A stretch of DNA of 64,000 nt from Opeltia flavorubescens (Eukaryota > Ascomycota > Lecanoromycetes > Teloschistales > Teloschistaceae), in contig KE546979.1 in NCBI GenBank assembly GCA_000442125.1, forward strand, positions 186,001 to 250,000. Reading direction: 5' to 3'. Both the position numbers and the translations under genes were made by a program. Below, one piece after another: positions 41,106-61,887 of this stretch (position 1 is its first letter; the number at the start of each line of letters is the position of its first letter). The notes below the pieces were generated by a model. The model searched no databases, was not told the origin of the DNA, and saw nothing but the letters and a program-made list of their open reading frames with translations.

Positions 41106-43310
41106 TCACCATCCTCGCCGCCGTGTGGCATAGACACCGATTGGAAGAGAATAGCTGAGTCCAGGGGCAGGAATTTTGGCGCTGGGGACTGGGACGCGTT
41201 GTTCGGGTGACCAATCAGTCATTTCAGTGTCCTCAACATACACCTTCACTGATGGTGCATCCACCATCTCCATGTCCTCATCTAAGTCCTCGTCCTCATC
41301 CGTCATCTCAACGTCCTCGTCGTCCGAGTGAATTAATGGAGGAGCGTCGGACATTTCGACATCACTGGGCTGGACATCGTTGGGCTCGAGGCTGGGCGCG
41401 TCAGTGAAGATCGCGTCATCCGACTCGTCCTCGTCGAACGGTTGAGGGGGAGTCAATGGAGAATACGGCGGTGGTGGAGTAGTAGGGGTCTCTGGCTGTG
41501 GTTGTCGAGGGGCTTCCTCTCCCTCTTCGGAGCCAGTTCCCGATTTTGGCGTACCCGGCATGTTCTCGTACGGGTCGAACCCGTAGATCTGCGTCCAATC
41601 GAAGCCATGTTCCCCCGCCGTAGGAATGGAGGGAGGAATTGGGTCAACAGTAGGAGGCTCTTGCGCTTTCTCTGTCACGGATGGCTGTGGAGGTGCTTGC
41701 GTAGTAGCCTGAGAAGCAGGGTGGCTAGACTCATTGTCGGAATGGATGTCACCGTTTGGAGGAGCAGGGCGGTTAGGCTCCTCATCAGAATTGATGTTAC
41801 CGTTCGAGCTCGAAGTACTCTGAGTACTATCAGCCGCGGGCGAAGGCGACGATCTAGCTTCGGCAGTTTTTGCACCATGGTTGGGATCTGGTGGTGCAGC
41901 CCCGGCAGTACCACTCGGGTCTGGAGTGGGAATTGAAGCAGCTGGCGTGGGTTCGGGCGCTGCTTGACTGCTTGCCTCTTGCGGTAGGGGTGTGTTGGCT
42001 GCGTCAGCCAGGAAGTCATCCTCCGTTGGTCCTGTCGGCTCGGGAGTTTCGTCAGTTGGCGTCGTCGCCTGAGGGACGTCACCGGATGGCGACGTTGTCT
42101 GTGGGCCCTCAGGTGGTGGTGCTGTCCCCGAGGCCTCATGGACCGGCGGAGGCGTTTCCGATACCGGCTCAGAAGGCGTTGACGTTCTCGGGGACTGGTG
42201 CCGAGTGTCCCAAGTGCCATCACGCCAGGAGTTGAAAGCGGCGTTGTAGCGCCTTGAACGTTCCTGGTATTGTTGGAACAATCTCTGGGGTGACGGCCGG
42301 AGATTTCGGTGAGGCGAATTGGGAAGTGACGGAGCTGCTTGGGGGATTGATGGTGAACCTCCATTACAGGCGTCAGCCGAAGCTTCAGCCTTCGGAGGGC
42401 AGGGTTGGTGAGGTGGGTAAGTAGCGGATGGGGAGCTTGTAGGAACAGGCCCACTACTTCCCGTATTGGGGTTTGGCCCATCCATTTCCGGATCGGCAGG
42501 TGGCTGCCATCTCCTGGTGACGAAAAATTCATCCAAAAGATCAATGAGCTCATCTAGGCCATCACCACCTGTGCCGTTAGATCCGATCCCATGTTGACTG
42601 GAGTCATGAGGCGCTCCATGGGCAGCAGAAGGTTGATTGTCGAGTCCTGCTGGGGGTAAATCCTGGGCTTCCGATCCGAGAATACTGGCTCTCCTGCGAG
42701 AGATATCTCCAGCATTGCGTACAAAGTTGCCTGCGTTGGCCCTACCAAAGGATTGAGGGATGCTGAAACCTATGACCAAGTTCCAGCTGATCACAATGGC
42801 AGGGGTACTCGAGCTGGCTGATTGATACTCAATGAGGAGTATGACGGGAGAGTACCAGCTGGTTATGACATTTCCAGTGATGGTGGTCGACCAAGTGACA
42901 GCGTGCTGTTCCATTTTGTCAGAGACTTTTTCCCGAACGAGATTCTTCATTTTATTTCCACTTACTGTGGATCTTGAGGTGACACACTTGAGTGCTGTTT
43001 TCGGTTCACGACGGACTACCTTGGCTTTGGCGTTGGTGGTCGAAGCCAGCAGTATCAGGAACGACACAAAACCAAGGTGAAGGACCACCATGAGGAAGCA
43101 AGGAAAGAGGTCAGGGATGGGGTCGAGGTCTTGCACCGCTGCAGAGACACTCGACAGGCGGGTGTAGCATGATTGCATCCATGCCGTTGTCACTGCAATT
43201 CAATGTAAGCATATCGTGGGTGGACTTGAATTTGCGGCTTCTTTACAAGGATAGAGGAGGGAGAGGAGGGCGACTCCCACGCTCGCCAGGAAAGCAACAT
43301 TTTCAGACAT
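41106..43310 (-). CDS. Large membrane-anchored, Pro/Ser/acid-rich protein, unknown function
   Basis: Exons 43247-43310 and 41106-43192 (54-nt intron, GTAAAG..TTGCAG) give 716 residues. Exon 1 encodes a hydrophobic segment (NVAFLASVGVALLSLLYPL, about 5-22) that may be a signal peptide or anchor. A clear membrane helix follows at about 54-72 (FLMVVLHLGFVSFLILLAS), and a weaker hydrophobic stretch lies around 130-165. The rest, from about 190, is disordered, rich in Pro, Ser, Thr, Glu and Asp. Near the C-terminus the pattern [DT]-x-E-M-x-D occurs four times (DVEMSD, DVEMTD, DMEMVD, DTEMTD) among acidic runs. No catalytic domain or known family seen. Topology like that of the neighbouring coiled-coil protein suggests paired roles, which is inference only. 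Confidence 0.7.
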
Positions 43311-45085: not shown

Positions 45086-48000
45086 CTACCTCTGAGTGCC
45101 TGGGTCTTCGCCGCCATCAGCTTCTGGTTTAGGATCTTGGTCGAGCGCCCCCATCTTCTTCAACTGCCTCCTCTTGCGCTGTCTTCTGCTAGCCCGCTCA
45201 TTTTGTTTCTGTCGTCTGGAGCGCTCATCCTGTCTAGGTTCAGCGGACTCGATCGGCTCGACAGAATCCACTGACTCATCAGGCTCCATAGGATTGGTAC
45301 TTTGCGGGCTTTTGGTGGAATCGCTTGCCCCCTGAGGAGCTTCGCTATCTTCATCACTACTCGAATCCCCCTCATCTCTCGGTGACCCGATCCATTGTAG
45401 GGTATTGGATGCCTTTGGCCCGTAACCCAAAGCTGTGGGAGAATAGTCGTTTTGTATTGCTGCTAATGCTTGCAATTCGCCATCGCTAATATTTGGCCGG
45501 GGGCCAAGGGTGAATGGAGTCCGGGCCGGTCCTTGCATATAACCCATGCTCACCCGTCCATGGGGCGGGGTGTAAGGTGCAGCCCCATATCTGATTGGGG
45601 AGTGAAAAGAGGTAGGGATCCTGGTATCGACAACCCTTGTAAAAGGGAACGGGTGTTTTGCAGCGGCTGGCGCTGGGGAAGGTTTGGGCTTTTGATCGCT
45701 GAAAGGGCTGAAAATATGGCGCTTTTCTTCCTCAGCCTTCTTCCTTGCCTCCCCAGCCTCCTGGTGAATTATGATAGCCGCATCTATCAAGGGCATTCCT
45801 CTCTTCGGGTCGTTGATCTCAGAGTCCCAGTGCTCCACGGATCTGGAGTAGGCTTCATCTTCAGTCAATCCCGTTGTGTCCAACTTGGGAGGCAGCGGCT
45901 CAGGCGCAGGTTCTGATGTCTTGATATGTTTCTTGCCATTTGCTTCTTCATCCTCATCATCAGACTCAGAGAACTTCCTGCTGACTTTTGTGGCTGCTGG
46001 CTTGTTGCCATCGAGGTCTTGTTGGAGATCTAAGTCTGCTCTAGTAAAGATCGTCAGAGGCAAAGTACGACTCAGGAACCCACCATGAGCAGTGGATATT
46101 GCTTGAATGTAGTTGAACGTACCGCTTGTCTCAAGTGGAAGCGGAGAGTTTCCCAAGGGCGATTCATTTTCGTCCCCTTGCGGCGCATGATTGCCGATAA
46201 ATTTGATCTCGCCATTTTCGACGATAACGCGTGTGGCAAGCTTTGGCGTTCCTGAGACCAAAGACTTCTCCTCAGACTTGATCGGTGTGGTATCATCGGT
46301 CCTAGGGGTATCATCATTAACATTATTGTCATTAGCGGGAGCTTCAGTTCTTTCAAGCTCCATTGAGTTATCATATTGCAGTGGCCCGNTCATTCCCATT
46401 GAATCGATCGCGGTCACAAAGGTGTCGTCAGCAGCAGAGTCTTCATCAATGGGAGTTTCAATTCCGTCATACTCCATTGGAGTATCATGCTGCATTGGCT
46501 CGATCATCGCTCCAGAATCAAACGGACCGGAACTGGCACCATTATTCACTCCTTGATCTCCACCGATCAAATTCATGACATGGTCTGGATCACCAGACGT
46601 CATTGGATCAGAAATGTCCGGTGACTGAACGAAGGTTGCCGTGTCTAGCACATTGAACCTATTACTCAGTTTTGCCCAGTCCACATCATAGTGCGCTTGA
46701 TCGACTTCATCACCGATATTGCCAAGCTCCATCGGCTGAGAATCAATCATTTCACACGTGTTGACGTCCATAACTTTGATGTCAGTTTGAGGAGTGTAGA
46801 AGTCGACTTCTCCACGTCCCTGGTTTTGCTCGCTTGCATTAAGATCCTGGACCACAGCTCCATTGTCCTGGTCGGGGCCAGCGTCGTCGGCTGAGGCTGC
46901 AGAAGTGTTGTCATGGGAGCCGTATCGACGCTTCTTATCATCCGATGTATCAACTTTCAAGTGCTCGATCTGGCCGGCTGTGGCATCATCAGGTTGATTG
47001 TCTGGCGAGGACTTCTTTGCGGCACTGGCTAAGGTAAAGTCGAGTTCGAGTTGCTGGATTTGACGCGCAAGATCTTCTTTCTCAGCCTCAACGACCTTCA
47101 GCTTATCATTGGTCGAGGTGAGCTGCTCATTTGCTGCGTTCAACGCATGGTCCTTCTCTGCCAGCGCTCGTGTATGCTCTACTGCAACCGTAATCTTCTC
47201 TTCTTCATAAGCCTTGACCGTAGCAGCTTCCTGCGCGTCTCGTCTATCGAGCTGTTCGCGACGCGCCGTTTCAATGACTTTGATTCTTTCTTCAAGTTGT
47301 GTAATTTCGTTTAAAAGAGCTGCGTTCCCAGCTATGAGCCTGTCATTTTCTGCCGTCGTCCAGTTGGTGCGAATACGAAATCCCTCTAATACGGGAGTCT
47401 GATAAGCCAGCCGACCTTCAGCGTCTCGCAACGCCTGTTCGAGATATTCGGCTCTCTTTCCATTGTCGGTTCTCTCTGCTGCAAGACGTGAGATTTCTAC
47501 CTCTAGGTTACTGATATTATGATCTTGAATATCGTGCTCATTATTCAGACGTACAACTTCCTGTTTTGAGTGGTCTGCGTCACGAGTGAGTCTGTCCTGT
47601 GTTTTAGACAGGCTGTTGATACCTTTCCTTGCGTCAAACAACTTGTCTCGCAATTCGGAATTAATCTTTCGTTGGTTTTTCAAGATGGCGTTGGTATTGC
47701 ACAGATCTTGGCCAGAACTCGTTAACTTGGCTTTCATATGAGTATTGGCAGCGGAAAGACTGTCAACTTGTGATTGAAGCGATTTCACCTGTGCTGCACT
47801 ACTGTTGGCTTGTTGAAGGAGCTCGCTCACTCCAATGCCGGTATGTTGCTTGCACAAATCAATACTGGCCATAACTTTTGGGTATACTTTCTGCCACCAA
47901 TGACCTATGCACGGTCGTTCGGACTTCTTTCGATTTGGATCTAGAGACTTGGACTTGCGCAATTCTCTGGCGTTGGACCGAAGACTAATGCTTTCAGCGT

Positions 48001-48205
48001 TGAGGCTCACAGGTGCTTGATTGCGACGCGAGATGCAATACTGGATAAATGTATAGAGGCAATACAGGAGTAGAATGACGAGGAGCAGATAAACGAACTT
48101 GGTGAGGATGCTGGATACTCTCGAGAGAAGTGGGTGAGTCAAAGGAATCTCAGCCGCATAGGTCATGGTAGAGTTCAGTGCAGCCGCCGCTGGGAGCGTC
48201 GCCAT
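45086..48205 (-). CDS. Large membrane-anchored coiled-coil protein, unknown function
   Basis: Single open frame of 1,039 residues from the first ATG (48205); the frame stays open about 70 nt further upstream without another ATG, so a small 5' exon is possible. A membrane helix at about 37-58 (FVYLLLVILLLYCLYTFIQYCI) is followed by a basic Arg/Lys cluster, which predicts a cytosolic C-terminal side. Residues about 125-405 form a long coiled coil (LQSQVDSLSAANTHMKAKL, LNNEHDIQDHNISNLEVEI). The second half is acidic and disordered with an internal duplication (EPMQHDTPMEYD.., GPLQYDNSMELE..). It then has a moderately ordered section (LTEDEAYSRSVEHWDSEINDPKRGMPLIDAAIIIH) and ends in a basic tail (RQRKRRQLKKMG). 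One base (46389) is undetermined. A tethering or scaffolding role would suit the build but is inference. Confidence 0.75.
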   Translation of the reverse strand: MATLPAAAALNSTMTYAAEIPLTHPLLSRVSSILTKFVYLLLVILLLYCLYTFIQYCISRRNQAPVSLNAESISLRSNARELRKSKSLDPNRKKSERPCIGHWWQKVYPKVMASIDLCKQHTGIGVSELLQQANSSAAQVKSLQSQVDSLSAANTHMKAKLTSSGQDLCNTNAILKNQRKINSELRDKLFDARKGINSLSKTQDRLTRDADHSKQEVVRLNNEHDIQDHNISNLEVEISRLAAERTDNGKRAEYLEQALRDAEGRLAYQTPVLEGFRIRTNWTTAENDRLIAGNAALLNEITQLEERIKVIETARREQLDRRDAQEAATVKAYEEEKITVAVEHTRALAEKDHALNAANEQLTSTNDKLKVVEAEKEDLARQIQQLELDFTLASAAKKSSPDNQPDDATAGQIEHLKVDTSDDKKRRYGSHDNTSAASADDAGPDQDNGAVVQDLNASEQNQGRGEVDFYTPQTDIKVMDVNTCEMIDSQPMELGNIGDEVDQAHYDVDWAKLSNRFNVLDTATFVQSPDISDPMTSGDPDHVMNLIGGDQGVNNGASSGPFDSGAMIEPMQHDTPMEYDGIETPIDEDSAADDTFVTAIDSMGMXGPLQYDNSMELERTEAPANDNNVNDDTPRTDDTTPIKSEEKSLVSGTPKLATRVIVENGEIKFIGNHAPQGDENESPLGNSPLPLETSGTFNYIQAISTAHGGFLSRTLPLTIFTRADLDLQQDLDGNKPAATKVSRKFSESDDEDEEANGKKHIKTSEPAPEPLPPKLDTTGLTEDEAYSRSVEHWDSEINDPKRGMPLIDAAIIIHQEAGEARKKAEEEKRHIFSPFSDQKPKPSPAPAAAKHPFPFTRVVDTRIPTSFHSPIRYGAAPYTPPHGRVSMGYMQGPARTPFTLGPRPNISDGELQALAAIQNDYSPTALGYGPKASNTLQWIGSPRDEGDSSSDEDSEAPQGASDSTKSPQSTNPMEPDESVDSVEPIESAEPRQDERSRRQKQNERASRRQRKRRQLKKMGALDQDPKPEADGGEDPGTQR

Positions 48206-48828
48206 TCCAACGAATAATTCTTCGTTAGCCGCCACAACGATAGGATCAATTCCGAGCTGTGAGACGACGTTTGTGATTCCTAGTATTATGAAAATGGATT
48301 TGGACAGCAGACTATACTGTTCAGCTATTGCGAAGGTATGTCTTGGTCAAGAAAGATATTCAGGAGGGTCAAAGAACTGCGAACACACTGCCGTCCGTGG
48401 GAGGAAAGGTTGCTAAAATGTTGCTATGAGACTGATACTCGTCTGGCAAAAGCTTGGTAGCGCTTGTTTTGAAGTTCCTGTAGATATGAAGGATTGAAAC
48501 CTGGTGTGCCAATGTATGATGGCAAGATGAATGGATAATGGAACATCCAGGAAGGTAGTAGAATTTGTGGGGGATCTCATTAAGCGAGCTTGAATGTGAT
48601 GAATTGAAGTGAGGATCTTCACTTTGCCACTGTTGATGGATTATCAACATTGGAGATCATCACAAATAATGGGAGTGGCTCAACAGATTTTCTTTGTTCT
48701 ACCACCATGACTATTTATTCTCATGGCAGTTCTCTTTATTCTCCCACTCAACCACTCTGGAGACTCAATAATACGAAATTTAAGGCACGATTTCATTAGA
48801 TCATTCTTCTCAACCCAACTACTTCGCC
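48206..48828. other. Divergent promoter spacer
   Basis: About 620 bp between the coiled-coil protein gene and the first plus-strand family member. No gene seen. Confidence 0.45.
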
Positions 48829-49209
48829 ATGGCTTTACGATATCAACTACCAGACCCCAAGAACCCGAAGCACAAAGATCGACTCCTCGTTCTCGACATA
48901 TCCACCAAGAACAGCGCCGCTCTTTGCGCAACTATGTGCTTGATCAACCAGCATATGGACCATCTGATCAAGCTCCATGGTGAATTCTTCGGCAAGGGAA
49001 GAATCTATGACAGAGCAATGAAGTTATACGCCCATTTCCAAAAGGAATTCGATAGTGGCGTCAGATTGGAAAAATTGGGCGTCGTCTATCACAAGATACA
49101 GTTTCTCATTGCTGTTCGTGACGTCGAGAAGAAGTTGATTGCTATCAGCTCTGACTTTCATAAGATTCGTCTCGAGTGTGCGGACATATACCGAACAATG
49201 CCCTTTTAG
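48829..49209 (+). CDS. Small helical protein, outlying member A of the tandem family
   Basis: Single-exon, 126 residues, no signal peptide. It matches the array proteins in outline: a short N-terminal lead (YQLPDPKNP), then LLVLDISTKNS in the place of the KYxTLD motif. A first helix pair follows, and a C-terminal helix RDVEKKLIAISSDFHKIRLECADIYRTM corresponds to LExKLxDxRxDMxxLxxxCxxRM in the array. It lacks the intron and lies on the opposite strand, about 1.5 kb before the array. Function unknown. Homology to the array is by motif order and is weaker than among array members. Confidence 0.55.
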   Translation: MALRYQLPDPKNPKHKDRLLVLDISTKNSAALCATMCLINQHMDHLIKLHGEFFGKGRIYDRAMKLYAHFQKEFDSGVRLEKLGVVYHKIQFLIAVRDVEKKLIAISSDFHKIRLECADIYRTMPF

Positions 49210-50703: not shown

Positions 50704-51189
50704 CTACCAACGTCTCCCCGCACGAGTAAATTCAACCTCCTTCCACCAATACATGCTAGCGATGATGTGCATGTCGTCCCCTACAGCTTCAATCTTGTTA
50801 TACAGGCTCAACATACTGCTTCCGAACTGTTGCCTAGAATCCCGATTTTTTGTCGCGTTAGGATCCAGAATAATTGTCAAAGGGCAACTAGATTCTGTCC
50901 AAGAGCTACGGAGCAGCCTTCCAAGCTCAGACAGATTACTCCCGTCTGAGGATATCCGGTTGATGAGTTCAAACGCTTCGTCTCGGGATTTGGGGCCGGC
51001 GTCGAGGGTGAAGTATTTTACTCCCTGGTTACAGGTAAGCACGTGAAGCTAGAGTGGTGAAAGAAAGTGGAAAGGTATGAGGTGTGTTTAGACCTTAGGG
51101 TTGGGATCTTGAGACTTTACTGGTAGGTATTGAATCTGGACCGGGGCCGGTATGGTTGCATTAAAGGTAGTGGAAGCCATTGATGACAT
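50704..51189 (-). CDS. Tandem-family small protein B
   Basis: Exons 51094-51189 and 50704-51024, 138 residues. Exon 1 ends PVQIQYLPVKSQDPNPK, and exon 2 begins GVKYFTLDAGPKSRDEAFELINRI. The 69-nt intron has a weak GTCTAA donor but the same phase-0 position as all other members. After two predicted helices the C-terminal part (SLYNKIEAVGDDMHIIASMYWWKEVEF) keeps the helix spacing but has lost the Cys/Arg-Met end. No signal peptide or membrane segment; probably cytosolic or nuclear. A TGACGTCA palindrome lies about 130 bp upstream of the ATG. It is the most 3' of the nine head-to-tail copies and among the more diverged. Function unknown. Confidence 0.7.
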
Positions 51190-51320
51190 AAATAATTTGA
51201 AGTTGTGACTTAGAGGCTTGCCTCTGCTTAGTTGCTGTCCCTTTGAAAAATTCTAAGGTTGAAAGGAAAAAGTCACTTGATCATAGACGTTGAATGCAAA
51301 GTTTCGTATGTAGTTACCGA

Positions 51321-51328
51321 TGACGTCA
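51321..51328. promoter_or_regulatory. CRE-type bZIP site upstream of gene B
   Basis: TGACGTCA, a perfect ATF/CREB palindrome, about 135 bp upstream of the ATG. It sits in a block ATGACGTC[AG]ATT[GA]GGC[TC]GA shared with gene C. Confidence 0.5.
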
Positions 51329-51725
51329 ATTGGGCTGATTGATCAATACACATGCAAGAAAAATTCCTCGCGGATATCTGCACAACAGATGGGAGATCGA
51401 TTAATGATGAATTTTTGAGATAGAGTGATGAAGTTGTAATTCTTTGCCCTCGTTGCACGACCACTCAGCAGCACAGATCTATCACCACTGACTGATCTAG
51501 TCGTGCCCCAATGAGGTGCCTTAGAATTGCTCATGATTTGGACATCATGTTTGAAGGATCTATTTTGCTATGGATCCGCTTTGTACGAGGTCTAACTCTG
51601 GGATTGACGGAGGACAAACCTCAGAAGTCAGGTCCGCCATATCGCCGTATCGCAAATTCCACAGACCATCTTCTAGCTACCCATCGCTCGTTTCTCCTTT
51701 GCGCCCTATCTCCATTATCCCTGTC

Positions 51726-52220
51726 TCAAATTTCACCGATCCTACGCTCACAATGAACCTGCATGTCAACCATATCCCACTCTACCCATGTTAGTTTTTT
51801 ATGTAGTCCTTGCAGAGTTCGGTCAAGATCCTGTATCATTGCCCTTTGCAGCTCCCCATCAAGGGCAGATGAAGAGAGATTAGCATTGAAGCGCGGTGAA
51901 CCAACATTTGTTGAGTCCGGAAACAGCGCATGACGAAAACTCGTAATCTGCCAAAGGAGCTCTTGAACATGTTCAGAGTCGGTGCGTATTTGATTAGGGA
52001 TTTTTCGGATTTCGTCATACGTCTTATCGTGGAGATTGAGCGTGAAATATGTAAATCGCTAGATGTGTGTGAGTGTGAGCAGGTGGATTTGAAAAGTCCA
52101 AGGATCGAGGGGTGATGGTGAACGAACCTCGCGTCTAAGTCGAGCGTTATCAGACTGAACAAGCAGGTAAAGAGGCTTGGTCCTCGACTGTGTGACTGAG
52201 TCGGTGGTAGTGGTAGACAT
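51726..52220 (-). CDS. Tandem-family small protein C
   Basis: Exons 52128-52220 and 51726-52058, 141 residues. Exon 2 contains no early ATG, so it is easily missed without the intron (69 nt, GTTCGT..TCTAG). Exon 1 is Ser/Thr-rich and ends with the KPLYLLVQSDNARLRRE stretch; exon 2 opens RFTYFTLNLHDKTYDEIRKIPNQI, with the pattern of genes D, E and F. A helix with HVQELLWQITSFRHALFPDS follows, and the C-terminal helix QDLDRTLQGLHKKLTWVEWDMVDM ends in CERRIGEI. Belongs to the subgroup C-D-E-F (arginine-rich exon 1, FRYLTLDxH start of exon 2). Soluble, function unknown. Confidence 0.75.
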
Positions 52221-52363
52221 TGCTGACGTGGCTGAATTCGAGTCGGGACTCGTAGTGTACGCGCAAGGTATGTAGCTCTTCTATAAGAAGACTGGTCGTC
52301 GATGCAGGGAAGAAGTCACATGGATATGGAAATTGTTCGCGAACTTTCGGATGTAATTGCCTA

Positions 52364-52371
52364 TGACGTCG
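52364..52371. promoter_or_regulatory. CRE-like bZIP site upstream of gene C
   Basis: TGACGTCG, one change from the CRE palindrome, about 148 bp upstream of the ATG; flanks match those of the gene B site. Confidence 0.45.
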
Positions 52372-52736
52372 ATTAGGCCGACGTATTAGGTTTTGTGCAA
52401 GATATCACTTAAGGACTGATCTACTGGGCTTAAGTTTGAGTCATGTATATTGAATTGAAGTTTGATTTCTGATGATGTTACTATTATGCCCTGCCCTGCT
52501 TTACATGGCCGTCCACGAAGACACATCATCTCAACTTACCTTCTCTTAGAATTTGTCATCGCTCTCCTAATAATGCAGAAAATCAGTCGCCAGATACACT
52601 ACCACTGCTGCTATGATGAGTCATGCTACAGCTAAAACCTGGAAGAAAGAGAGTTGGAAAGGTCTGCCGCCATATCAATCAGCTTTCTGATGAACCTAAT
52701 GTGCTCATTTCTCCTTCATCTCAGTCTTCATCTACG

Positions 52737-53234
52737 TTAACTCTGCCTCTTTAGCTCATCACTCCTGCGCTTAGCAGAATCAAAAAACAACGTGTTCATA
52801 TCCAGCCTCATGTGGCTCAACTTTGCCTCCAAATCCAGAAGAGTTTCCTCGAGATGCGGCACATGTGCCCAATCTACCTTTATATTAACATAAGGAAGAG
52901 CGCTAGAAGAAGTAGCAGTATTCTCTGGGTTAAAAAGGCGCGAGTCTGGGAATATCGTGCGGCGGGACCTCTCAATTTGGTCTATGAGCCACTTCAGCCG
53001 GGTAGAGTCCCAGAGTATCTGGTTGGGCAAGCCGAAGATTTCGTCGCGGCTGCTGTTATGCACGTCGAGAGTGAGATACCTAAATCGCTGGAGATGTGTA
53101 AATATACAGGCCCAGGGATGGAGAGTTGGGGGTGGACCAACTTTGTGGATATAGCCCGCTTCGCCAGGCCTATTTGGCCGGTACTGAGGTTTGACGATCG
53201 TCTGGGCCATTGTACTAGAGGGAATTGTAAACAT
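52737..53234 (-). CDS. Tandem-family small protein D
   Basis: Exons 53142-53234 and 52737-53087, 147 residues. The 54-nt intron (GTTGGT..CTCCAG) has no stop and is a multiple of three, so unspliced transcript would add 18 residues in frame. Its position, directly before RFRYLTLDVHNSSRDEI, is that of the whole family. Exon 1 carries KPQYRPNRPGEAGYIHK. The rest follows the family plan: helix STRLKWLIDQIERSRRTIFPDS, a variable loop, then LEETLLDLEAKLSHMRLDMNTLFFDSAKRR. The ATG used gives the common 31-codon exon 1; the frame is open further upstream. Function unknown. Confidence 0.75.
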   Translation of the reverse strand: MFTIPSSTMAQTIVKPQYRPNRPGEAGYIHKVGPPPTLHPWACIFTHLQRFRYLTLDVHNSSRDEIFGLPNQILWDSTRLKWLIDQIERSRRTIFPDSRLFNPENTATSSSALPYVNIKVDWAHVPHLEETLLDLEAKLSHMRLDMNTLFFDSAKRRSDELKRQS

Positions 53235-53347
53235 TGCTAGCGTAGTTGGATGAACGATAAGAGAACGGGAGATGTAAGGCGTGTGGTACAGAAGAACATA
53301 TAGGAGTCTTAGTATGTGTCGATCGGTGAATTCGGTACATCGTGACA

Positions 53348-53354
53348 TGAGTCA
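53348..53354. promoter_or_regulatory. AP-1/Gcn4-type bZIP site upstream of gene D
   Basis: TGAGTCA about 117 bp upstream of the ATG, in ATGAGTCAT. Confidence 0.5.
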
Positions 53355-53516
53355 TCAATTCCTCTATTGGAATATGCTGATGAACCGCATCACCATTATC
53401 GTCATTTACTGTCCGTATACATGATACATCAGAAGTCAGATTTCTAAGGGACTATCTAAACCATCATCCGCTTCTTTCCCCACAAGCTCACCCGTTCCTT
53501 CATCCCCAGAACCCCT

Positions 53517-54018
53517 TTATGTATTATCCGTGCACAAGTTTGGCCATCCAAAAGGCACATAACATAGACATTCCATCTGTTGTAGATCCCCATGAATCCA
53601 CGCCACTTTGACTTCCAACATATGGAGACTTTCTTCTAGACTAGGTCCTTGCCCCCCTTCCAACTCACTCTTGATACCCCCGGAAGGAACGGAGCCTAAT
53701 GGACCATAGCGCACTGTGTGTGGAAAAAGCCTATCGCGGACGGTGCAAATTTGGCGTAACAGCGAAAAGAACTGGATCCTGTCCCGGTGTACTTGACCGC
53801 TGAGGGAGTATAATTCTTCACGGGTCTTGCCGTGATGATCAAGAGTGAGATATCGCAATTGCTGAAGACACGTAAATGGATGTTTTTGATGGAAGTGTGG
53901 GGGTGTTGGGAGAAGAGGATTGACATACCTTTCTATATTCCGGGTCCGTGGGCTTGACGAGACGGTATTGGGGATTACTCACTACTCGTGGAACTATATC
54001 GGTGCTTGTGATAGACAT
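53517..54018 (-). CDS. Tandem-family small protein E
   Basis: Exons 53929-54018 and 53517-53861, 144 residues; 67-nt intron with a strong GTATGT donor and CTTCAG acceptor. Exon 1 ends NPQYRLVKPTDPEYRK and exon 2 starts QLRYLTLDHHGKTREELYSLSGQV. The helix RIQFFSLLRQICTVRDRLFP and the C-terminal LEESLHMLEVKVAWIHGDLQQMECLC follow, and the end (FGWPNLCTDNT) is not conserved. Closest to F in exon 1 (QYRxxKPTDxEYxK). Its intron has the best splice signals of the nine and anchors the shared gene structure. Function unknown. Confidence 0.75.
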
Positions 54019-54185
54019 TACGCTTGTCCTTGTAGTATAGACTCGTGAGGTTTATGTTTGACCCTTGATGAACTCCGTGGAAGAATAAAGAACGGAGGAG
54101 GAGTGGTACGAAAGAGCGAAAAACATTCACCGTACATGGAAGTTTTATCCTATTCTTGCTTCTAATGTTCCTTGAATCGGGTTAT

Positions 54186-54191
54186 ACGTCA
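54186..54191. promoter_or_regulatory. Half-CRE bZIP site upstream of gene E
   Basis: ACGTCA on the plus strand (TGACGTAT on the gene strand) about 170 bp up from the ATG; the same TGACGTAT form occurs before gene F. Confidence 0.4.
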
Positions 54192-54350
54192 TCAGGGTCT
54201 TGTTCAACCAAAAATTAACGAAGAAGATCATCACTTCTGTTTGATTCATCGGGAAAGAGAATGTCAGACACCACAAATTCTTCGACGACTACCCGCCCTG
54301 TCCTCCACTAATTCACACTTCCTGCACTCCCATACCCAGCTCTCTCAACC

Positions 54351-54851
54351 CTACCCGTCAAGACTCAACATCCTCCGCTCGCAGCGCGAAGACATCAGAG
54401 TCAAATCTCCCTTGATACTCAACACTTTGTTCAACAATCGAATGAGAGTTTCTTCGAGGCAAAATTCTTGCCCCGGTTCTGGCTTAAAATCGAATTCGTA
54501 GCGTGGGGGATGAGACACTATAGTAGGGCGACCCAATTCTGGAAACAGGCTTTGTTGGGTTTTACGGATTCGTCGCATTAGAATATCGAGCTGGGCACGG
54601 TCCGACCGTATTTGCTTGTTGAGCGTGCGCATTTCTTTGGGCGTTTTGATGTCGTGGATGTCGAGGGTTAGGTATTTGAAGGTCAGATGAGGCCGGAGTG
54701 CCTGTTTTTGATGAGAACGAAGGATTTAGGGCTTGTGGGAAGAAGGTGAGCGAACCTTTTGATATTCTGCGTCTGTAGGCTTGATAGGACGGTACTGAGG
54801 TCGACTTCCGCGTGGAGTTTTGTGGGAGTTCATGGTTTGCAATGCTGACAT
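54351..54851 (-). CDS. Tandem-family small protein F
   Basis: Exons 54756-54851 and 54351-54701, 148 residues; 54-nt intron (GTTCGC..AACAG). Exon 1 ends RPQYRPIKPTDAEYQK. Exon 2 has six extra residues (ALRPHL) before the shared TFKYLTLDIHDIKTPKEM, because the acceptor lies further upstream than in its neighbours. Then comes a helix RAQLDILMRRIRKTQQSLFPEL, a Pro-rich loop and LEETLIRLLNKVLSIKGDLTLMSSRCERRMLSL. This retains the full C-terminal Cys-x-x-Arg-Met signature. An ATG six codons downstream (54833) is a possible alternative start. Function unknown. Confidence 0.75.
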
Positions 54852-54948
54852 AGGCGTGATTGAACTTAACAGAACTTGATCACAAATGATCTCTCGGGTA
54901 GATTCAAAAGGGAAAGATGAAGTAAACTGAGTGCAAAAAGCTTAGCAT

Positions 54949-54954
54949 ACGTCA
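54949..54954. promoter_or_regulatory. Half-CRE bZIP site upstream of gene F
   Basis: ACGTCA (TGACGTAT on the gene strand) about 100 bp upstream of the ATG. Confidence 0.4.
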
Positions 54955-55007
54955 TTTTGAAATATTCGAACTAGATCATCGATACTATTTCCAATCAACA
55001 CAAAAAG

Positions 55008-55534
55008 TCAAAGGCTCCAATTCCCTCCATCCGCCATTCCAAAATCACTCAACCCATGTGCGAAGTACAACATCCAACACGAACATTGATCCTCAATGAT
55101 GTCCAAATCATCCCTCACATCCATCAACCTCCTCTCCAGCTCTAGCGTAACCCTCCCAAACCCTAATTCTGCTCTACCAAGGCACCTATCACTGCCCTGA
55201 CGATGGCACTGGCAGCCCCGAGATATCGTGTCGCTAAGGTATTGATTGAATATGCTTCGTGATTCAGAGAGGAGCCGTTCAAGACCGATGAGTTCCTTTT
55301 GATGAATGTGTATTGGTGAGACGAGCCGTATGGCCTTATCTTGTGTTTCGTTTTCGAAGTCAAGAGTGACGTATTTTGCGCCCTGGAAATAAATCAACTC
55401 TTGAAAGAGGGGCAGCGATGGATACAGGACGTTTTGGTAGAACGAACCCTTGCATCGGGACCTTCATGCTGTATGGGCAAGTAGTGAACTTCGGGAAAGG
55501 ATCTGGGAGTGTTGATAGAAAATGAATTAGCCAT
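55008..55534 (-). CDS. Tandem-family small protein G
   Basis: Exons 55448-55534 and 55008-55382, 153 residues; 65-nt intron (GTTCGT..TTCCAG). Exon 1 (29 codons, as in H and I) contains EVHYLPIQHEGPDAR. Exon 2 starts GAKYVTLDFENETQDKAIRL and goes on with KELIGLERLLSESRSIFNQYL, a Cys-containing loop, then LELERRLMDVRDDLDIIEDQC. A short extra tail (LSDFGMADGGNWSL) follows. Belongs to the subgroup B-G-H-I-J (exon 1 with VQYLP, exon 2 with G-x-K-[YH]). Its promoter closely matches that of H over at least 60 bp, so G and H are a recent pair. Function unknown. Confidence 0.75.
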
Positions 55535-55685
55535 GGAGGGCGATATGATCTAGTTGTTGGGTCTGGTAATCAATGTATGGTATTGTAGAGGAGATAGATG
55601 ATAGAGGAAAGAAGTCGGAAAGCATGATTACTTATAGAGCCTCTGAAACAAATTGGCTCGTGATCGGGCTCGGGGTATCGTGATA

Positions 55686-55692
55686 TGAGTCA
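55686..55692. promoter_or_regulatory. AP-1/Gcn4-type bZIP site upstream of gene G
   Basis: TGAGTCA about 155 bp upstream of the ATG, within a GATATGAGTCAC block shared with gene H. Confidence 0.5.
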
Positions 55693-55804
55693 CTAAAACT
55701 CTTTTAGATGAATGTTAAACATCATCAGTACTATCTTCAACGCCACGGAAACCCATGCTAGACCCCCAAGGCTTCACCATATTCCTACGGCCATCCATCT
55801 TTCA

Positions 55805-56296
55805 CTAAGTTCCATTCTCATTCTCCAATTCATACATCCTATTTGCGCATGCGATGAATATTTTATCCATATCCTCCCGTGCATCCAATACTTTCATCTC
55901 CAGCTTCAGGATAGCCCTCCCATATCCAGCTTCATTTTTCCTGAAGAACTCCCCATCATCGTCGATGTGATATTTACAATCCAAAAACCCTGCATTTCTA
56001 ATGTATTCATCAAATTTCGCCCTGGACACAGAGAGAAGACTTCCAAGATCGAGGAGCCGTGGGGAATCTTTTTTGCGTAGTTGCTGGGAAATCTTTTTGC
56101 ACTCGCTCTCGGTCGTGGTTCGGAGGTCAAGAGTGATATATTTTGGGCCCTAGGAACAATTTAGCATGCGTATATAGGAGAAATGAGATCAAGGAAAAGA
56201 GAAACGAGCCTCTGTATCGGTACTCCGATGCTCTACAGGCACGTATTGAACTTCGGTAAAGAAAGGTATGTTTGTGTCAGACGTAGAAATCGACAT
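55805..56296 (-). CDS. Tandem-family small protein H (GC-AG intron)
   Basis: Exons 56210-56296 and 55805-56149, 143 residues. The intron is at the family position and in phase 0, but its donor is GCTCGT where sisters have GTTCGT; a TCCTAG acceptor follows. It is either a working GC-AG intron or a damaged donor. Without splicing the frame from the ATG closes soon after. Exon 1 contains EVQYVPVEHRSTDTE; exon 2 starts GPKYITLDLRTTTESECKKI. Then come LLDLGSLLSVSRAKFDEYI and ILKLEMKVLDAREDMDKIFIACANRMYEL, the clearest version of the C-terminal signature. Function unknown. Confidence 0.7.
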
Positions 56297-56449
56297 TGAC
56301 GGCGAGATGATTCGGTGGTCTTGTTGTTAAATTTAATAAATATCGACGTGGAGAGGATAAATGATGGAAAAAGAAAGTTAAAAGTACTTAAACATTTATA
56401 GAATCTCCGAAACGAGTTGACTCAGGATCTTGCTCGGGGAATCGCGATA

Positions 56450-56456
56450 TGAGTCA
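56450..56456. promoter_or_regulatory. AP-1/Gcn4-type bZIP sites upstream of gene H
   Basis: TGAGTCA about 157 bp upstream of the ATG, with a second site TGACTCA at 56418-56424. Confidence 0.5.
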
Positions 56457-56580
56457 CCAAAATACTCTCATTGACAGACTAATAAATGACGACGATTATC
56501 AATACTTTCCTGACACCGCCAGAAACAAGGACTTGACACCTCAATTCTCCCCTCATCCTATCATCCAGCTTCCACGACTC

Positions 56581-57064
56581 TTAGCTCGAGGAGTTCAACT
56601 CCACCATCCTACTCAAACACCCGTCTGTCAACCAACACATATCTTGTTTCAACTCCATGAATTTCCTCTCCAGCTCCGAGATAGCCTTCCCAATACTTGA
56701 CTCTTCTCTACTAACGCAATATCCATCACGATCAACGGAGTATCGACAATTCCAAGGCTCCAAGACCCTAAAGTATCGATCATATCTCCCTCGAGCTTCT
56801 GCTAGGAGGCTTCCCAGTTGGACGAGTTGACGCTTGTCTCTGCATACCTGTTCCGCGATTTTTAGGGCCTCGGGTCCGGTTGTGTTTCGAAGGTTGAGAG
56901 TGATATGTTTTACGCCCTGGACCCAAATCAAGAGTTGGAGAAGGAGCGATGAATATGTGGAGAACTGGGAGACGAACAGGCAAGTTGGCATTTTGATGCC
57001 ATATGGGCAAATACTGAACTTTGAGACAGTTTGGTGAAGCTGTCTCGGAAGTAGATGCAGCCAT
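56581..57064 (-). CDS. Tandem-family small protein I
   Basis: Exons 56978-57064 and 56581-56916, 140 residues; 61-nt intron (GTTCGT..GTCCAG). Exon 1 has KVQYLPIWHQNANLP; exon 2 opens GVKHITLNLRNTTGPEALKI, with His for Tyr and Asn for Asp in the motif. The helix RQLVQLGSLLAEARGRYDRYF, a loop (CRYSVDRDGYCVSREE) like that of H, and ISELERKFMELKQDMCWLTDGCLSRMVEL follow. An upstream in-frame ATG at 57130 would add 22 residues; I chose the one that gives the 29-codon exon 1 of G and H. Function unknown. Confidence 0.75.
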
Positions 57065-57192
57065 CGAGCGAGACAAGCTGCTTTCAAGAATGGGCTGTAA
57101 TACTCGATATTTTTTTCCCACAGAGGACAAAAGATGGAGGAAAGATCTTCAACGATTTGAGTAATTATGATATGTTCTGAAACGTGAGTTTT

Positions 57193-57199
57193 TGACTCA
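57193..57199. promoter_or_regulatory. AP-1/Gcn4-type bZIP site upstream of gene I
   Basis: TGACTCA about 132 bp upstream of the ATG. Confidence 0.5.
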
Positions 57200-57295
57200 C
57201 AATGCCGTTTGAAAAATTATATTGGGAGTCATAATCTCCCGTCATGACCCTTTGAAGTTTCAACCTTTTTGCCACCGCGAGAACCTCCATATATT

Positions 57296-57818
57296 TCAAT
57301 CCACCGCCAGCCTCTGGAGCTCCAGCATCTTATTCGTACACCTATTTCCCAAAATATGCATATCGATCGTCACACCATCCATCTTCCTCTCCAGCTTCAA
57401 CATGGTCACCGCAAAATTTGATTCGTCTAAGATATACCCTCCCTTCATATCGCACAAGCTGTGCCGACCCTGCCTAAATTTTTCGTCGAATTTCCATCGA
57501 GAGTCGAGAAAGAGGAATCTGAGCTCCCAGACTTGCTCGGCATCGTTGCGTAATTGCGTGGAGATTGTCGTGAGTTCGCCCAATGATTTGTTCTGGATGT
57601 CGAGAGTGATATGTTTGGGGCACTGTAGAGTAGGTCAGTACGCGAGGAATCCAGTGCATGAGGCTAGAGCAATAGGGAAATGATTAAGGGGATCACACCT
57701 TGAGATCACGATCAGGTTCTTGTTGCTCCACAGGTAGGTACACAGGTAGGTATTGAACCTGAGTCACGGCAGACGAACGCGGCTTAGAGAAACGTGGCCT
57801 GGAGGGACGAATAGACAT
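57296..57818 (-). CDS. Tandem-family small protein J
   Basis: Exons 57699-57818 and 57296-57622, 148 residues; 76-nt intron (GTGTGA..CTGAC..CTACAG). Exon 1 is longer (40 codons), Arg/Pro-rich and has the YLPV motif doubled (VQYLPVYLPVEQQEP). Exon 2 starts CPKHITLDIQNKSLGELTTI, followed by VWELRFLFLDSRWKFDEKF and MLKLERKMDGVTIDMHILGNRCTNKMLEL. This is the first gene of the nine-copy run and is divergent to K. Function unknown. Confidence 0.75.
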
Positions 57819-58178: not shown

Positions 58179-58649
58179 ATGTACTCCCATATAGGGTATC
58201 GACACCCCGACCCTCGACTCCTCCCCCCCAAAATCCCTCTCACCTACGAAACAACCTCTTCTCCCTCCCATGCCCCCGTAATCCGGGAGAGACGTCTCCT
58301 CGACTTCGACTGTTCTCAAAAAACCTACACGGAGCTCGCGGACATCCGCGTCTCAATGAAGGACGATAGGATCCTTCTTCATGGATTCAAAGTGGAAATG
58401 GAACTTCGCCTGATGACTCTGCAGTCCCAGGATAGGAAAATGAAAAAGGAGAGGTTGGGTTGGCTTGATGAGGGTAGACGCGATGATACCGAGGAGGTGA
58501 TTCGGGCTATGTTCATCGAGCATGTGAGGAAAAATATTGGAGTATTGGTGGAGAAGATAGGAGAAGCGGAGGACGATATTCGAGCACTTGAGGACGAGTG
58601 TTATATAAGGATGTTTAGGATTAGTGGGTATCGTTCGACTAGACTGTGA
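58179..58649 (+). CDS. Small helical protein, family relative K
   Basis: Single exon, 156 residues, plus strand, divergent from J. After a Pro-rich N-terminus, RRLLDFDCSQKTYTELADI stands in the KYxTLD position. A helix RILLHGFKVEMELRLMTL follows, and the C-terminal helix VEKIGEAEDDIRALEDECYIRMFRI matches gene G (DDL..IEDQC) closely. It lacks the family intron. I place it as an older or retro-copied branch; no function is known. Confidence 0.6.
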   Translation: MYSHIGYRHPDPRLLPPKIPLTYETTSSPSHAPVIRERRLLDFDCSQKTYTELADIRVSMKDDRILLHGFKVEMELRLMTLQSQDRKMKKERLGWLDEGRRDDTEEVIRAMFIEHVRKNIGVLVEKIGEAEDDIRALEDECYIRMFRISGYRSTRL

Positions 58650-59145: not shown

Positions 59146-59628
59146 TCACCTCGTAGCCTCCATTATCAAGTCGGTAACCATTTCAACAACATTGTCTCTA
59201 ACCTCCTGGAGGTCCCTGTTCAATTTTCGAATCTTATCCACCACGCTCCCCACGCCCTCAAGAAAGAGACACCGATAATATCGCTCCGATGCTTCGTGGG
59301 TGCCGTTGTCCCCGTCAAGATCCCGGACCATGCTCCACTCCCACGAAACCTGTGGCTTTTCCAACATCCCATCTCTCTCTGGTCCAACCAATCGTTCGAC
59401 TTGCATTTGATGCTCTGTCTGCTTCTGTGCCCTGAGATAGTCCGATCGCGATTCGAGCTCCTTCCGTAGCGTAGAAAGATGCTCCTGGTCTTCTTTTGCA
59501 GTATTGTTGATCGGGAAGAGCCTGAGATCAAGCACCTGCTGCGGTAGGTTGGGATTACGGGCGAGATACTTGGGGTGTAGAGGTTTGAGGGTGCGGGAAT
59601 ATGGGAGCGATGGGTAGATGACGGACAT
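59146..59628 (-). CDS. Small helical protein, family relative L
   Basis: Single exon, 160 residues, minus strand, at the right edge of the array. VLDLRLFPINNTAKEDQEHL takes the place of the KYxTLD motif, followed by helices STLRKELESRSDYLRAQKQTEHQMQ and VDKIRKLNRDLQEVRDNVVEMVTDLI. The intron is absent. The N-terminus (YPSLPYSRTLKPLHPKYLARNP) is Pro/Arg-rich like exon 1 of C to F. The most diverged relative, so membership is tentative. Function unknown. Confidence 0.5.
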   Translation of the reverse strand: MSVIYPSLPYSRTLKPLHPKYLARNPNLPQQVLDLRLFPINNTAKEDQEHLSTLRKELESRSDYLRAQKQTEHQMQVERLVGPERDGMLEKPQVSWEWSMVRDLDGDNGTHEASERYYRCLFLEGVGSVVDKIRKLNRDLQEVRDNVVEMVTDLIMEATR

Positions 59629-60777
59629 GGTGAAACAACGCTGTGGGCGAGTTCAATTGGTGTGGATGTCGTAATGGGGTTGTGCGGATGAAGGTGACGC
59701 TGATTGAGTCCGCCGAGGATTGAGCAGTCTCAAAGATGGTGGAAAGTTTGATGATCGGTGTGCGCCGGGGGGAAGAGCTCTTGATTCTAAGAGACTGATG
59801 ACGATGAGAATGGAACTGTGATGGAGGGGTTATAGACGGGAAATATGTGTCTTCGATAGAACAGAAAATGCTCTAGTTGTTTCAACGTCTCAGGGTCGCC
59901 CTGGCCTATTGAGACGGTCAAAAATAGAATTGGCAGTTAAGGCAAGCTTTAAAGTCATGATTTTGCACTTGAATGCAAATTGAGAAACGTCCCGGGGTAG
60001 TAGATTGATATCCTACCTGACCATTGTCTCTGATTGGTTTTCAAAGTCTATTCTGGTCGAAACGAAGCTGTATACTCATAATTCTTGGAACTAATCTGGA
60101 TGCTGCTGATGATCTGACATTATTCGAAGCAGCAGGCTATTCAAATACAACCTAAATCACAAAGAGCGCAAACTCCTCTTAGCTCCCTTTCCAGCTTCAT
60201 ATTCTATTTGGAACACGGTATAGGGTGTGAAGCTATGTCAGTGGTATAGCGATTCTGTCGCCGGCGTCATGCACAAGAAGTTCTCGAACACCCGCCTTAG
60301 TCGGCGAGTTCATCCAGCAAAGAACTACGTTCCAGCCACTTCGCAAACGATAGACGATATTCAGCTTTACGATAAAGTGATATACGGAAACGCTCAGTCT
60401 TTGACGGAGAGAGATATTCCCGGCCGGTCCGAAAATGTGGCTTGTTGGCGCCCAGTGTGTTACAAAGAGTGGCTCGGGATTCATGATCGTCCAGTAGATA
60501 TCAGCGCCTGCGTCTAAATCGACATGCCAGGTCTTATTAGTGACGGAACAGTCGTGACTCCATGTATCGAATCGAGGGGCGAACTAGTCGACTGCTCGAC
60601 CGGATCCGATCGTGGGAAGATGTATAGATATTAGTAATTGAATCTATGAGGTAGTATGATCGTGTCGCTATCGTTGAGCTTCTACTGAAGAGGGCGCTTG
60701 TGGCATGGATATCTAGCTCATCAAAGCCACCAGCGAAACCATCGATCACTGCAGGGTATCTCAACAAGCCACTAAGA
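59629..60777. other. Intergenic DNA, no gene seen
   Basis: About 1.15 kb. A 96-codon open frame (60227-60517, +) has no recognisable feature. Confidence 0.45.
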
Positions 60778-61887
60778 TCACAAGGAAACGACAACCTTCT
60801 TCGCCGACACACCCTTCATATTCAAATCCAAAGCCTCCTGCACATGCTCGAGTCCTTCGCCCACAACCTGAGGCTCCGGTGCGGCGCGGTATTTCCCATT
60901 CGCCAGAGCCGACGGCAAAAAGTCCTCGTAGATGATCCGACTCACTTCGTTAGCCATAAGATCGCTACCGAAGATGAATTTCGTAGCGACGCCCTTGCGC
61001 TTTGCTGTGAACCAGGTCGAGATGTTGGACCAGATGAACGAGAACACCAGCCCGATCATACCCATTGTGTTCTTTGGCATCTTTTCGGGCCAATCAACAC
61101 TAGCCTGAGCGACGAACTTTTTCCCCTGGGAGGCACCGATGATGGCAAGACAGGGTGGGATGGAGCGGTTACCGATGGCTATAGCCCCTGCGGATCGTTG
61201 ATTCTGTAGAGCCTTGATAATATCTGGTACGACCGTCGGGCTGTTGTAATCCCAGACCTCTGATGCGCCAAGTCCCTTCACGTAGTCGAAGTTCTTAGGT
61301 GAAGCAGTAGTAAAAACCTTGTAGCCGGACGCGACCGCCAGCTGAATAGCGTTGCTACCCACGCTTGTGGAGCCACCCCAAACGAGTAGGATGTCGTCTT
61401 TTGGCGTAGGATTCATTGAAGGTGACGGCAAGGCCAGATAGTCTTTCTGGTACAGAGCACAAGCGGCTGTGGAAAGGCATAGTGGTAGCACACAAGCAGA
61501 TTCATAGGACATCGAACCGGGAATGGGCGAGGTAAGGTTCGCTCTGGTGACAGTGTATTGCTGAAAGGCTCCCTCGGCAGAATTGTTGCTCCTCTTATCC
61601 ATACTGACTACGTGAGCTAGGACACGATCACCGACACGGAAACGGTCAACACCGGCGCCGACTTCGACGACCTCGCCGGCAAGATCGCTGCCGAGGATAA
61701 AAGGGTACTTGATCCAGGAAAACATCATGTCGCCGATAACTTGCTTGCCCCAGTCGACCGGATTGACAGCGATGGCTCCATTCTTGACGACGATTTCGTT
61801 GGCAGTGGGTGATGTGTAGGGGGCGGATCCGACTTGGAGGGGCTTGGCGGATTTGGCGGATAGCCAGGCTGCGGTATTTGACGGCAT
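60778..61887 (-). CDS. MDR-superfamily oxidoreductase, CipB-like
   Basis: Single exon, 369 residues: a medium-chain dehydrogenase/reductase of the quinone-oxidoreductase/CipB type. It has the GroES-like N-terminal domain (VDWGKQVIG..YPFILGSDLAGEVVEVG) and the Rossmann domain with the nucleotide loop LLVWGGSTSVGSNAIQLA. The structural and catalytic zinc Cys clusters of true alcohol dehydrogenases are absent, so it probably acts as an NADPH-dependent enone or quinone reductase. That is known of the family; the substrate here is unknown. No intron and no clustered partner enzyme except the SDR-like gene 530 bp away, divergent from it. Confidence 0.9.
   Translation of the reverse strand: MPSNTAAWLSAKSAKPLQVGSAPYTSPTANEIVVKNGAIAVNPVDWGKQVIGDMMFSWIKYPFILGSDLAGEVVEVGAGVDRFRVGDRVLAHVVSMDKRSNNSAEGAFQQYTVTRANLTSPIPGSMSYESACVLPLCLSTAACALYQKDYLALPSPSMNPTPKDDILLVWGGSTSVGSNAIQLAVASGYKVFTTASPKNFDYVKGLGASEVWDYNSPTVVPDIIKALQNQRSAGAIAIGNRSIPPCLAIIGASQGKKFVAQASVDWPEKMPKNTMGMIGLVFSFIWSNISTWFTAKRKGVATKFIFGSDLMANEVSRIIYEDFLPSALANGKYRAAPEPQVVGEGLEHVQEALDLNMKGVSAKKVVVSL

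Follow-up and report, generated by a model that had tools for sequence, protein, structure and literature searches.

A tandem array of nine two-exon genes for predicted coiled-coil hairpin proteins in DNA of Opeltia flavorubescens

Organization of the array

The window analysed, a stretch of 64,000 nucleotides of Opeltia flavorubescens (contig KE546979.1, positions 186,001 to 250,000 of the forward strand), was found to contain nine head-to-tail two-exon genes on the minus strand, which run from position 57818 down to position 50704 and are named J to B in that order (Table 1). Adjacent, same-strand homologous copies, by which a tandem family is recognized, were found in 9/9 cases, and the nine genes constitute a local, tandemly duplicated and diverged family with one intron position common to all copies. 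Each gene contained an exon 1 of 29-40 codons followed by a phase 0 intron of 54-76 nucleotides (nt), located at the identical position in the protein, and by an exon 2 of 107-125 codons (stop counted). The start-to-start distance was 0.68-1.04 kb. The frames were intact in all nine genes, with one terminal stop codon in each, and the products contained 135-153 residues. An earlier note on this DNA had claimed nine two-exon minus-strand genes at 50704-57818, and all of them were recovered; the size range that it gave, 138-153 residues, was right at the upper end and wrong at the lower, where gene B encodes 135. Its observation that exon 2 of gene C contains no early ATG was also correct, the earliest Met being found at about residue 74 of 110.

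The splice sites were located by a consensus scan, followed by a choice fixed by homology among the members. In gene H the homologous donor position was found to lack GT and a GC-AG intron was the best model, whereas in gene B the donor GTCTAA is probably used. The 54-nt intron of gene D reads through in frame, and therefore the splicing of D relies on its relatives.

Two entries of a public protein set, P0001 and P0002, matched the spliced products of G and E, respectively, at every residue, and therefore two of the nine introns are supported from outside. Both entries carry the source tag lgn, which we take to denote assemblies of public reads. The number of contigs listed was one for P0001 and three for P0002, with a longest contig of 1954 bases for each. 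If these contigs are derived from RNA, G and E are expressed. Between the start codon of G and the final sense codon of E the genomic distance is 2015 bases, as against 1829 with G, F and E spliced; if G and E lie on one 1954-base contig, that contig must therefore come from spliced RNA and span three genes. A read-through or merged transcript across G-F-E (53517-55534, minus strand) would be a guess, and the absence of F from the protein-search matches speaks somewhat against one G-F-E contig.

Table 1. Positions of the array genes, of the flanking relatives and of the upstream sites in the window
Feature	Position	Strand	Structure or basis	Product
Gene J	57296..57818	-	exon 1 57818-57699, intron 57698-57623 (GTGTGA..CAG), exon 2 57622-57296	148 aa
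Gene I	56581..57064	-	exon 1 57064-56978, intron 56977-56917 (GTTCGT..CAG), exon 2 56916-56581	140 aa
Gene H	55805..56296	-	exon 1 56296-56210, intron 56209-56150 (inferred GC-AG, donor GCTCGT), exon 2 56149-55805	143 aa
Gene G	55008..55534	-	exon 1 55534-55448, intron 55447-55383, exon 2 55382-55008	153 aa; spliced = P0001
Gene F	54351..54851	-	exon 1 54851-54756, intron 54755-54702, exon 2 54701-54351	148 aa
Gene E	53517..54018	-	exon 1 54018-53929, intron 53928-53862 (GTATGT..CAG), exon 2 53861-53517	144 aa; spliced = P0002
Gene D	52737..53234	-	exon 1 53234-53142, intron 53141-53088 (open in frame), exon 2 53087-52737	147 aa
Gene C	51726..52220	-	exon 1 52220-52128, intron 52127-52059, exon 2 52058-51726	141 aa
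Gene B	50704..51180	-	exon 1 51180-51094, intron 51093-51025 (inferred donor GTCTAA), exon 2 51024-50704	135 aa
K, diverged relative	48829..49209	+	single exon; profile match to nine-member family	126 aa
L, diverged relative	58179..58649	+	single exon; profile match to nine-member family	156 aa
M, possible relative	59146..59628	-	weak likeness to L; against the nine alone not significant	160 aa
TGAGTCA upstream of I	57193..57199	-	motif count	
TGACTCA upstream of H	56450..56456	-	motif count	
TGACTCA upstream of G	55686..55692	-	motif count	
TGACGTA upstream of F	54948..54954	-	looser match	
TGACGTA upstream of E	54185..54191	-	looser match	
TGACTCA upstream of D	53348..53354	-	motif count	
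TGACTCA upstream of C	52437..52443	-	motif count	
TGACGTCA site upstream of B	51321..51328	-	motif count	

Subgroups and flanking relatives

When profiles of eight members were used to find the ninth, all nine genes were recovered with E values of 7e-20 to 3e-32, and the kinship of the array genes is, on this comparison, beyond chance. The tree was found to contain the two subgroups that had been noticed before, C-D-E-F and B-G-H-I-J, split with support of 100/99, whereas the branches within each subgroup were long and their order was without resolution.

The array extends past 50704-57818, with two diverged members flanking it and possibly a third. K (open reading frame, ORF, 48784-49206, plus strand) matched the profile at E 3.6e-4 among the 890 ORFs of the window, and scored E 5.5e-4, the best of its 500 shuffled versions reaching 0.058. 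The exon-1-like RYQLPDP and the exon-2-like RLLVLDI of K were found in one frame with no intron between them. L (ORF 58179-58646, plus strand) matched at E 7.5e-4 among the same 890 ORFs, and 500/500 shuffles scored worse (best shuffle 0.2). Among 4082 ORFs, the E values of K and L were 1.6e-3 and 3.5e-3, respectively. M (ORF 59149-59652, minus strand) gave E 0.46 / 0.39 against the nine-member profile, with 1/500 shuffles scoring better, and L and M matched each other by BLASTP at E 2.4e-4 in the 12-sequence set.

Database and genome searches

No recognized family had been named for these genes in the earlier note, and none was found here. The 12 members, K, L and M included, contained nothing above the curated cut-offs of Pfam, and the same was found in NCBIfam for 10/12 members (B and M left out); in PHROGs no match of the 12 was better than E 0.09. 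The matches in these libraries, which were far under curated cut-offs or at E 0.02-0.2, were read as chance. By sequence, the PDB contained no credible match, the best being coiled coils at E 0.15. The search of proteins with an exon-2 profile, which had been proposed as a check, covered about 5.8 billion proteins and gave 480 candidates; it reached no described family, and the matches at E <= 1 were two proteins only, spliced G and spliced E themselves. A K-L-M profile gave 978 candidates in the same set and zero at E <= 1. This search requires shared 5-residue words and relies on gene calls in the relatives; the set contains at least one protein from each of ten named Teloschistales, whole-proteome coverage not being established. 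The literature, searched under general terms because the family has no name, contained no mention of it.

The own genome (34,397,415 bases in 23 contigs) was searched with eight of the twelve members as queries: K, L and M and, from the array, C, D, H, J and spliced G. No query recovered all nine genes, and therefore the family count is a lower bound. No convincing member beyond the array was found with these single-protein queries, which gave two weak matches: one to gene C at C8:469348-469494 (41% over 53 residues, E 0.0036, within a 598-codon frame) and one to M at C3:453835-453954 (E 0.165, with one internal stop). A motif pattern was found at 9 sites of the genome, as against 2 for the reversed control; 6 of the 9 lay within the array, and the ORFs around the 3 off-array sites gave a best profile E of 0.22. 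Elsewhere on the array contig, C15, twenty 10-kb pieces (1-20, 116-186 and 250-360 kb) contained no member, the best E being 0.75 with the nine-member and 0.29 with the twelve-member profile. The genes look like a real, narrowly distributed family without a match in the databases searched.

Predicted structure and localization

The proteins had been described as helical, and structure prediction of one member had been suggested as a check. The AlphaFold model of H exon 2 (12-row alignment) was found to contain two helices, 14-55 and 71-113, with a mean predicted local distance difference test (pLDDT) of 84.8 and a predicted template-modelling score (pTM) of 0.70. The model of full-length E (11-row alignment; pLDDT 71.1, pTM 0.61) contained strands 18-20 and 35-37 followed by two helices, at 44-75 and 105-134. 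The first strand comes from exon 1 and the second from the TLD motif, and this weakly predicted pair flanks the splice site. The exon-2 product is, as far as prediction goes, an antiparallel hairpin of two long helices with heptads.

In helix 1 the hydrophobic fraction was 0.73 in the heptad core vs 0.23 outside it, and in helix 2 it was 0.81 vs 0.31; these values were reached by 13/5000 and 8/5000 column shuffles, respectively. Two helices and a heptad hydrophobic core, the features of a coiled-coil hairpin, were accordingly found by prediction and by periodicity. Foldseek against the PDB gave 338 matches to the exon-2 model at E <= 10 and zero at E <= 0.001, and the VIA fold comparison gave generic hairpins only. 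The two-helix hairpins of the PI3K p85 inter-SH2 region, the Rad50 hook, the ING4 dimerisation domain, CHMP4B and prefoldin likewise contain two long antiparallel helices, of lengths similar to those of the array proteins.

No signal-like or membrane-like stretch was found in 12/12 members by a crude hydropathy scan. In the same scan (not SignalP) the N-terminal 12-residue mean hydropathy was <= 0.88 in 12/12, and the members did not resemble small secreted proteins.

Evolutionary rates

The ratio of nonsynonymous to synonymous change (omega, dN/dS) under the codon model of IQ-TREE was found to be 0.525 for C-D-E-F and 0.751 for G-H-I-J. The Nei-Gojobori method (NG86) was applied to the 16 within-subgroup pairs, the 20 between-subgroup pairs being left out. 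The proportion of nonsynonymous differences (pN) was lower than that of synonymous differences (pS) in 16/16 pairs, with a bootstrap interval excluding zero in 12/16, and pairwise omega ranged from 0.17 (C-F) to 0.87 (G-I). On an expectation curve, an omega <= 0.2 predicts a pS of 0.78-0.82 at pN 0.42-0.48, whereas a pS of 0.49-0.75 was observed. These three measures were relied on, as the pairwise maximum-likelihood omega of Biopython, at 0.05 to 1.42, was unstable and 12/16 pairs failed under YN00; saturation and alignment error are cautions on any omega given here. The claim of tandem amplification with fast evolution was upheld.

A partition into core and surface, which omits gene B, gave for C-D-E-F a dN/dS of 0.13 in the heptad core and 0.91 on the helix surface. 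With the conserved polar columns taken out, the surface value rose to 1.22; the surface intervals included zero difference. In G-H-I-J the surface dN/dS was 0.45-0.57. No pair and no site class among those tested had a pN significantly above pS. The C-D-E-F pattern fits a fold that is conserved while its surface is under loose constraint or diversifies, and it is no proof of positive selection.

Upstream sites

Within <=250 bases upstream, TGASTCA or TGACGTCA was found in 6/9 genes, as against a mean of 0.56 and a maximum of 4 in 1000 shuffles. A looser pattern was found in 8/9 genes (shuffle mean 1.1, maximum 5) and in 7% of 200 background windows. TGATGA was present upstream of 4/9 genes, a count that was reached by 6/1000 shuffles.

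Neighbouring sequence

The oxidoreductase at 60781-61887 (minus strand) was found to be 88% identical to a protein of a metagenome-assembled genome (MAG) named Letrouitia leprolyta, and 70-77% identical to proteins from a further nine named lichen fungi, which we take to be Teloschistales, among the best 120 of 3990 matches. In a paper on Teloschistales MAGs, the L. leprolyta sample is placed within Gyalolechia and is considered misidentified (PMC9907504). The 88% match presumably comes from that same sample. The host accordingly belongs to the lichen fungi of the Teloschistales, probably to Gyalolechia, with Gyalolechia flavorubescens (earlier Caloplaca) as the likely species. No match was obtained when the genome was searched for 5.8S rRNA.

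Position 45086-48205 (minus strand) contained a 1039-aa frame with an N-terminal hydrophobic segment by eye, a weak sub-cut-off match to the Taxilin coiled coil and, at 46389, the sole non-ACGT base of the window. A 690-aa frame at 41106-43178 (minus strand) was proline/serine-rich by eye and without a Pfam match at E <= 0.1. A Sulfatase with a choline-sulfatase C-terminal domain was found across several ORF pieces at 36317-38072 (plus strand), and at 9891-12170 (minus strand) a PIF1-like helicase, one segment of which weakly resembled the RNase H1 N-terminal region. The start of the contig (C15:1-20000) contained very AT-rich blocks with a GC content of 0.165 and 0.249, that of the window being 48%; these blocks possibly reflect decay of the type caused by repeat-induced point mutation. 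The GC content published for G. flavorubescens KoLRI002931, 41.9% (PMC3757454), is below that of the window, but with such AT-rich pieces the genome may well have a lower mean.

Discussion

The reading that we favour, tentatively and a little short of calling it probable, is that of a tandem family of narrow distribution, whose members are small intracellular proteins built as coiled-coil hairpins and probably serve as adaptors that oligomerise or dock. The proteins would be soluble and intracellular and would act through coiled-coil contacts, the hairpin either assembling with itself and its paralogues or docking on a partner. The fold would be kept by its hydrophobic core together with a small number of conserved polar residues, and the exposed helix faces and the loop would differ between paralogues and set the partner of each copy. 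Several copies are probably co-induced through the TGACTCA/TGACGTCA sites by a factor of the bZIP type. Tandem duplication within the genus or close to it would have enlarged the array, which was undetected elsewhere with the tools used.

Several points weigh against this adaptor reading. Hairpin folds are very common, and therefore the coiled-coil form says little on function; the first 30 residues of the full-length E model had a mean pLDDT of 50-54, and the introns of 7/9 genes are supported by homology alone. The core/surface contrast was weak in G-H-I-J, with a dN/dS of 0.38 vs 0.45. The upstream patterns were picked after the sequence was inspected, gene J contained TGATGA alone among them, the looser pattern was missing from K, L and M, and common promoter descent may be an alternative source of the shared sites.

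Tandemly amplified orphan families are common in fungi, and the array resembles them in the local birth of diverged small-protein paralogues. The nine genes could be young or relaxed orphan duplicates, constrained for folding only, whose copies drift without distinct roles. The high omega of both subgroups, the nearly neutral helix surface of C-D-E-F and a protein search without homologues besides G and E agree with such drift, but nine intact frames, pN below pS in every within-subgroup pair (12/16 with an interval excluding zero), the constrained heptad core of C-D-E-F and upstream sites common to several genes do not, and we consider this explanation unlikely, though a serious one.

A role in self/non-self or host interaction, on which the earlier note had speculated, was not supported. 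A diversifying array in which variation is selected for self/non-self, alga-fungus or parasite recognition would explain the tandem amplification with fast divergence and the C-D-E-F surface ratios of 0.91 and 1.22. Lichen-specific genes of the likely host species, which may or may not include the array genes, are up-regulated more often in early algal contact (17-18% at 12-72 h vs 6% at 4-6 weeks) (PMC9232553). Against such an array stand the lack of a significant pN excess in all pairs and partitions tested, the modest surface dN/dS of G-H-I-J, the absence of a signal-peptide-like stretch from the hydropathy scan and the 15 neighbouring ORFs of the window scanned with Pfam (a subset of the ORFs), in which no NLR or HET domain, no amyloid-signalling gene and no recognition gene was found; it seems distinctly improbable. 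More doubtful still is a hetero-oligomerising hairpin array specific to lichen fungi, in which the variable faces would form a combinatorial recognition or assembly code and the copies would be co-induced by a bZIP factor, possibly on algal contact.

Many folds share the hairpin geometry, and the family could be a known one that has diverged too far to be recognized, such as a domesticated hairpin of the capsid, ESCRT-III or WXG100 kind; a WxG motif between the helices was found in 0/12 members, and we give this origin little credence. That the array consists of chance open frames or pseudogenes is hardly credible, as the short ORFs, the several unusual splice donors and the one intron open in frame are outweighed by the homology between members, the identity of P0001 and P0002 to spliced G and E and the constraint at codon level.

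The array family has the restricted distribution of the lineage- and species-specific genes of lichen-forming fungi treated in the available text of PMC9232553. That text describes no tandem family, the word tandem being absent from its main text, whereas the array is tandem; the small secreted proteins defined there carry a signal peptide, whereas the array proteins appear to be without one.

Lichen-forming fungi contain many lineage-restricted genes, few of which have a named function, and the array is a compact and well-bounded example, for which gene models, outside support for two introns and a predicted fold class are offered here. Its expression can be checked, as RNA-seq of the likely host species in a time course with its algal partner, Trebouxia gelatinosa, is published (PMC9232553). 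If the variable faces are functional, such a diversified array inside the cells of a mutualist would be out of the ordinary.

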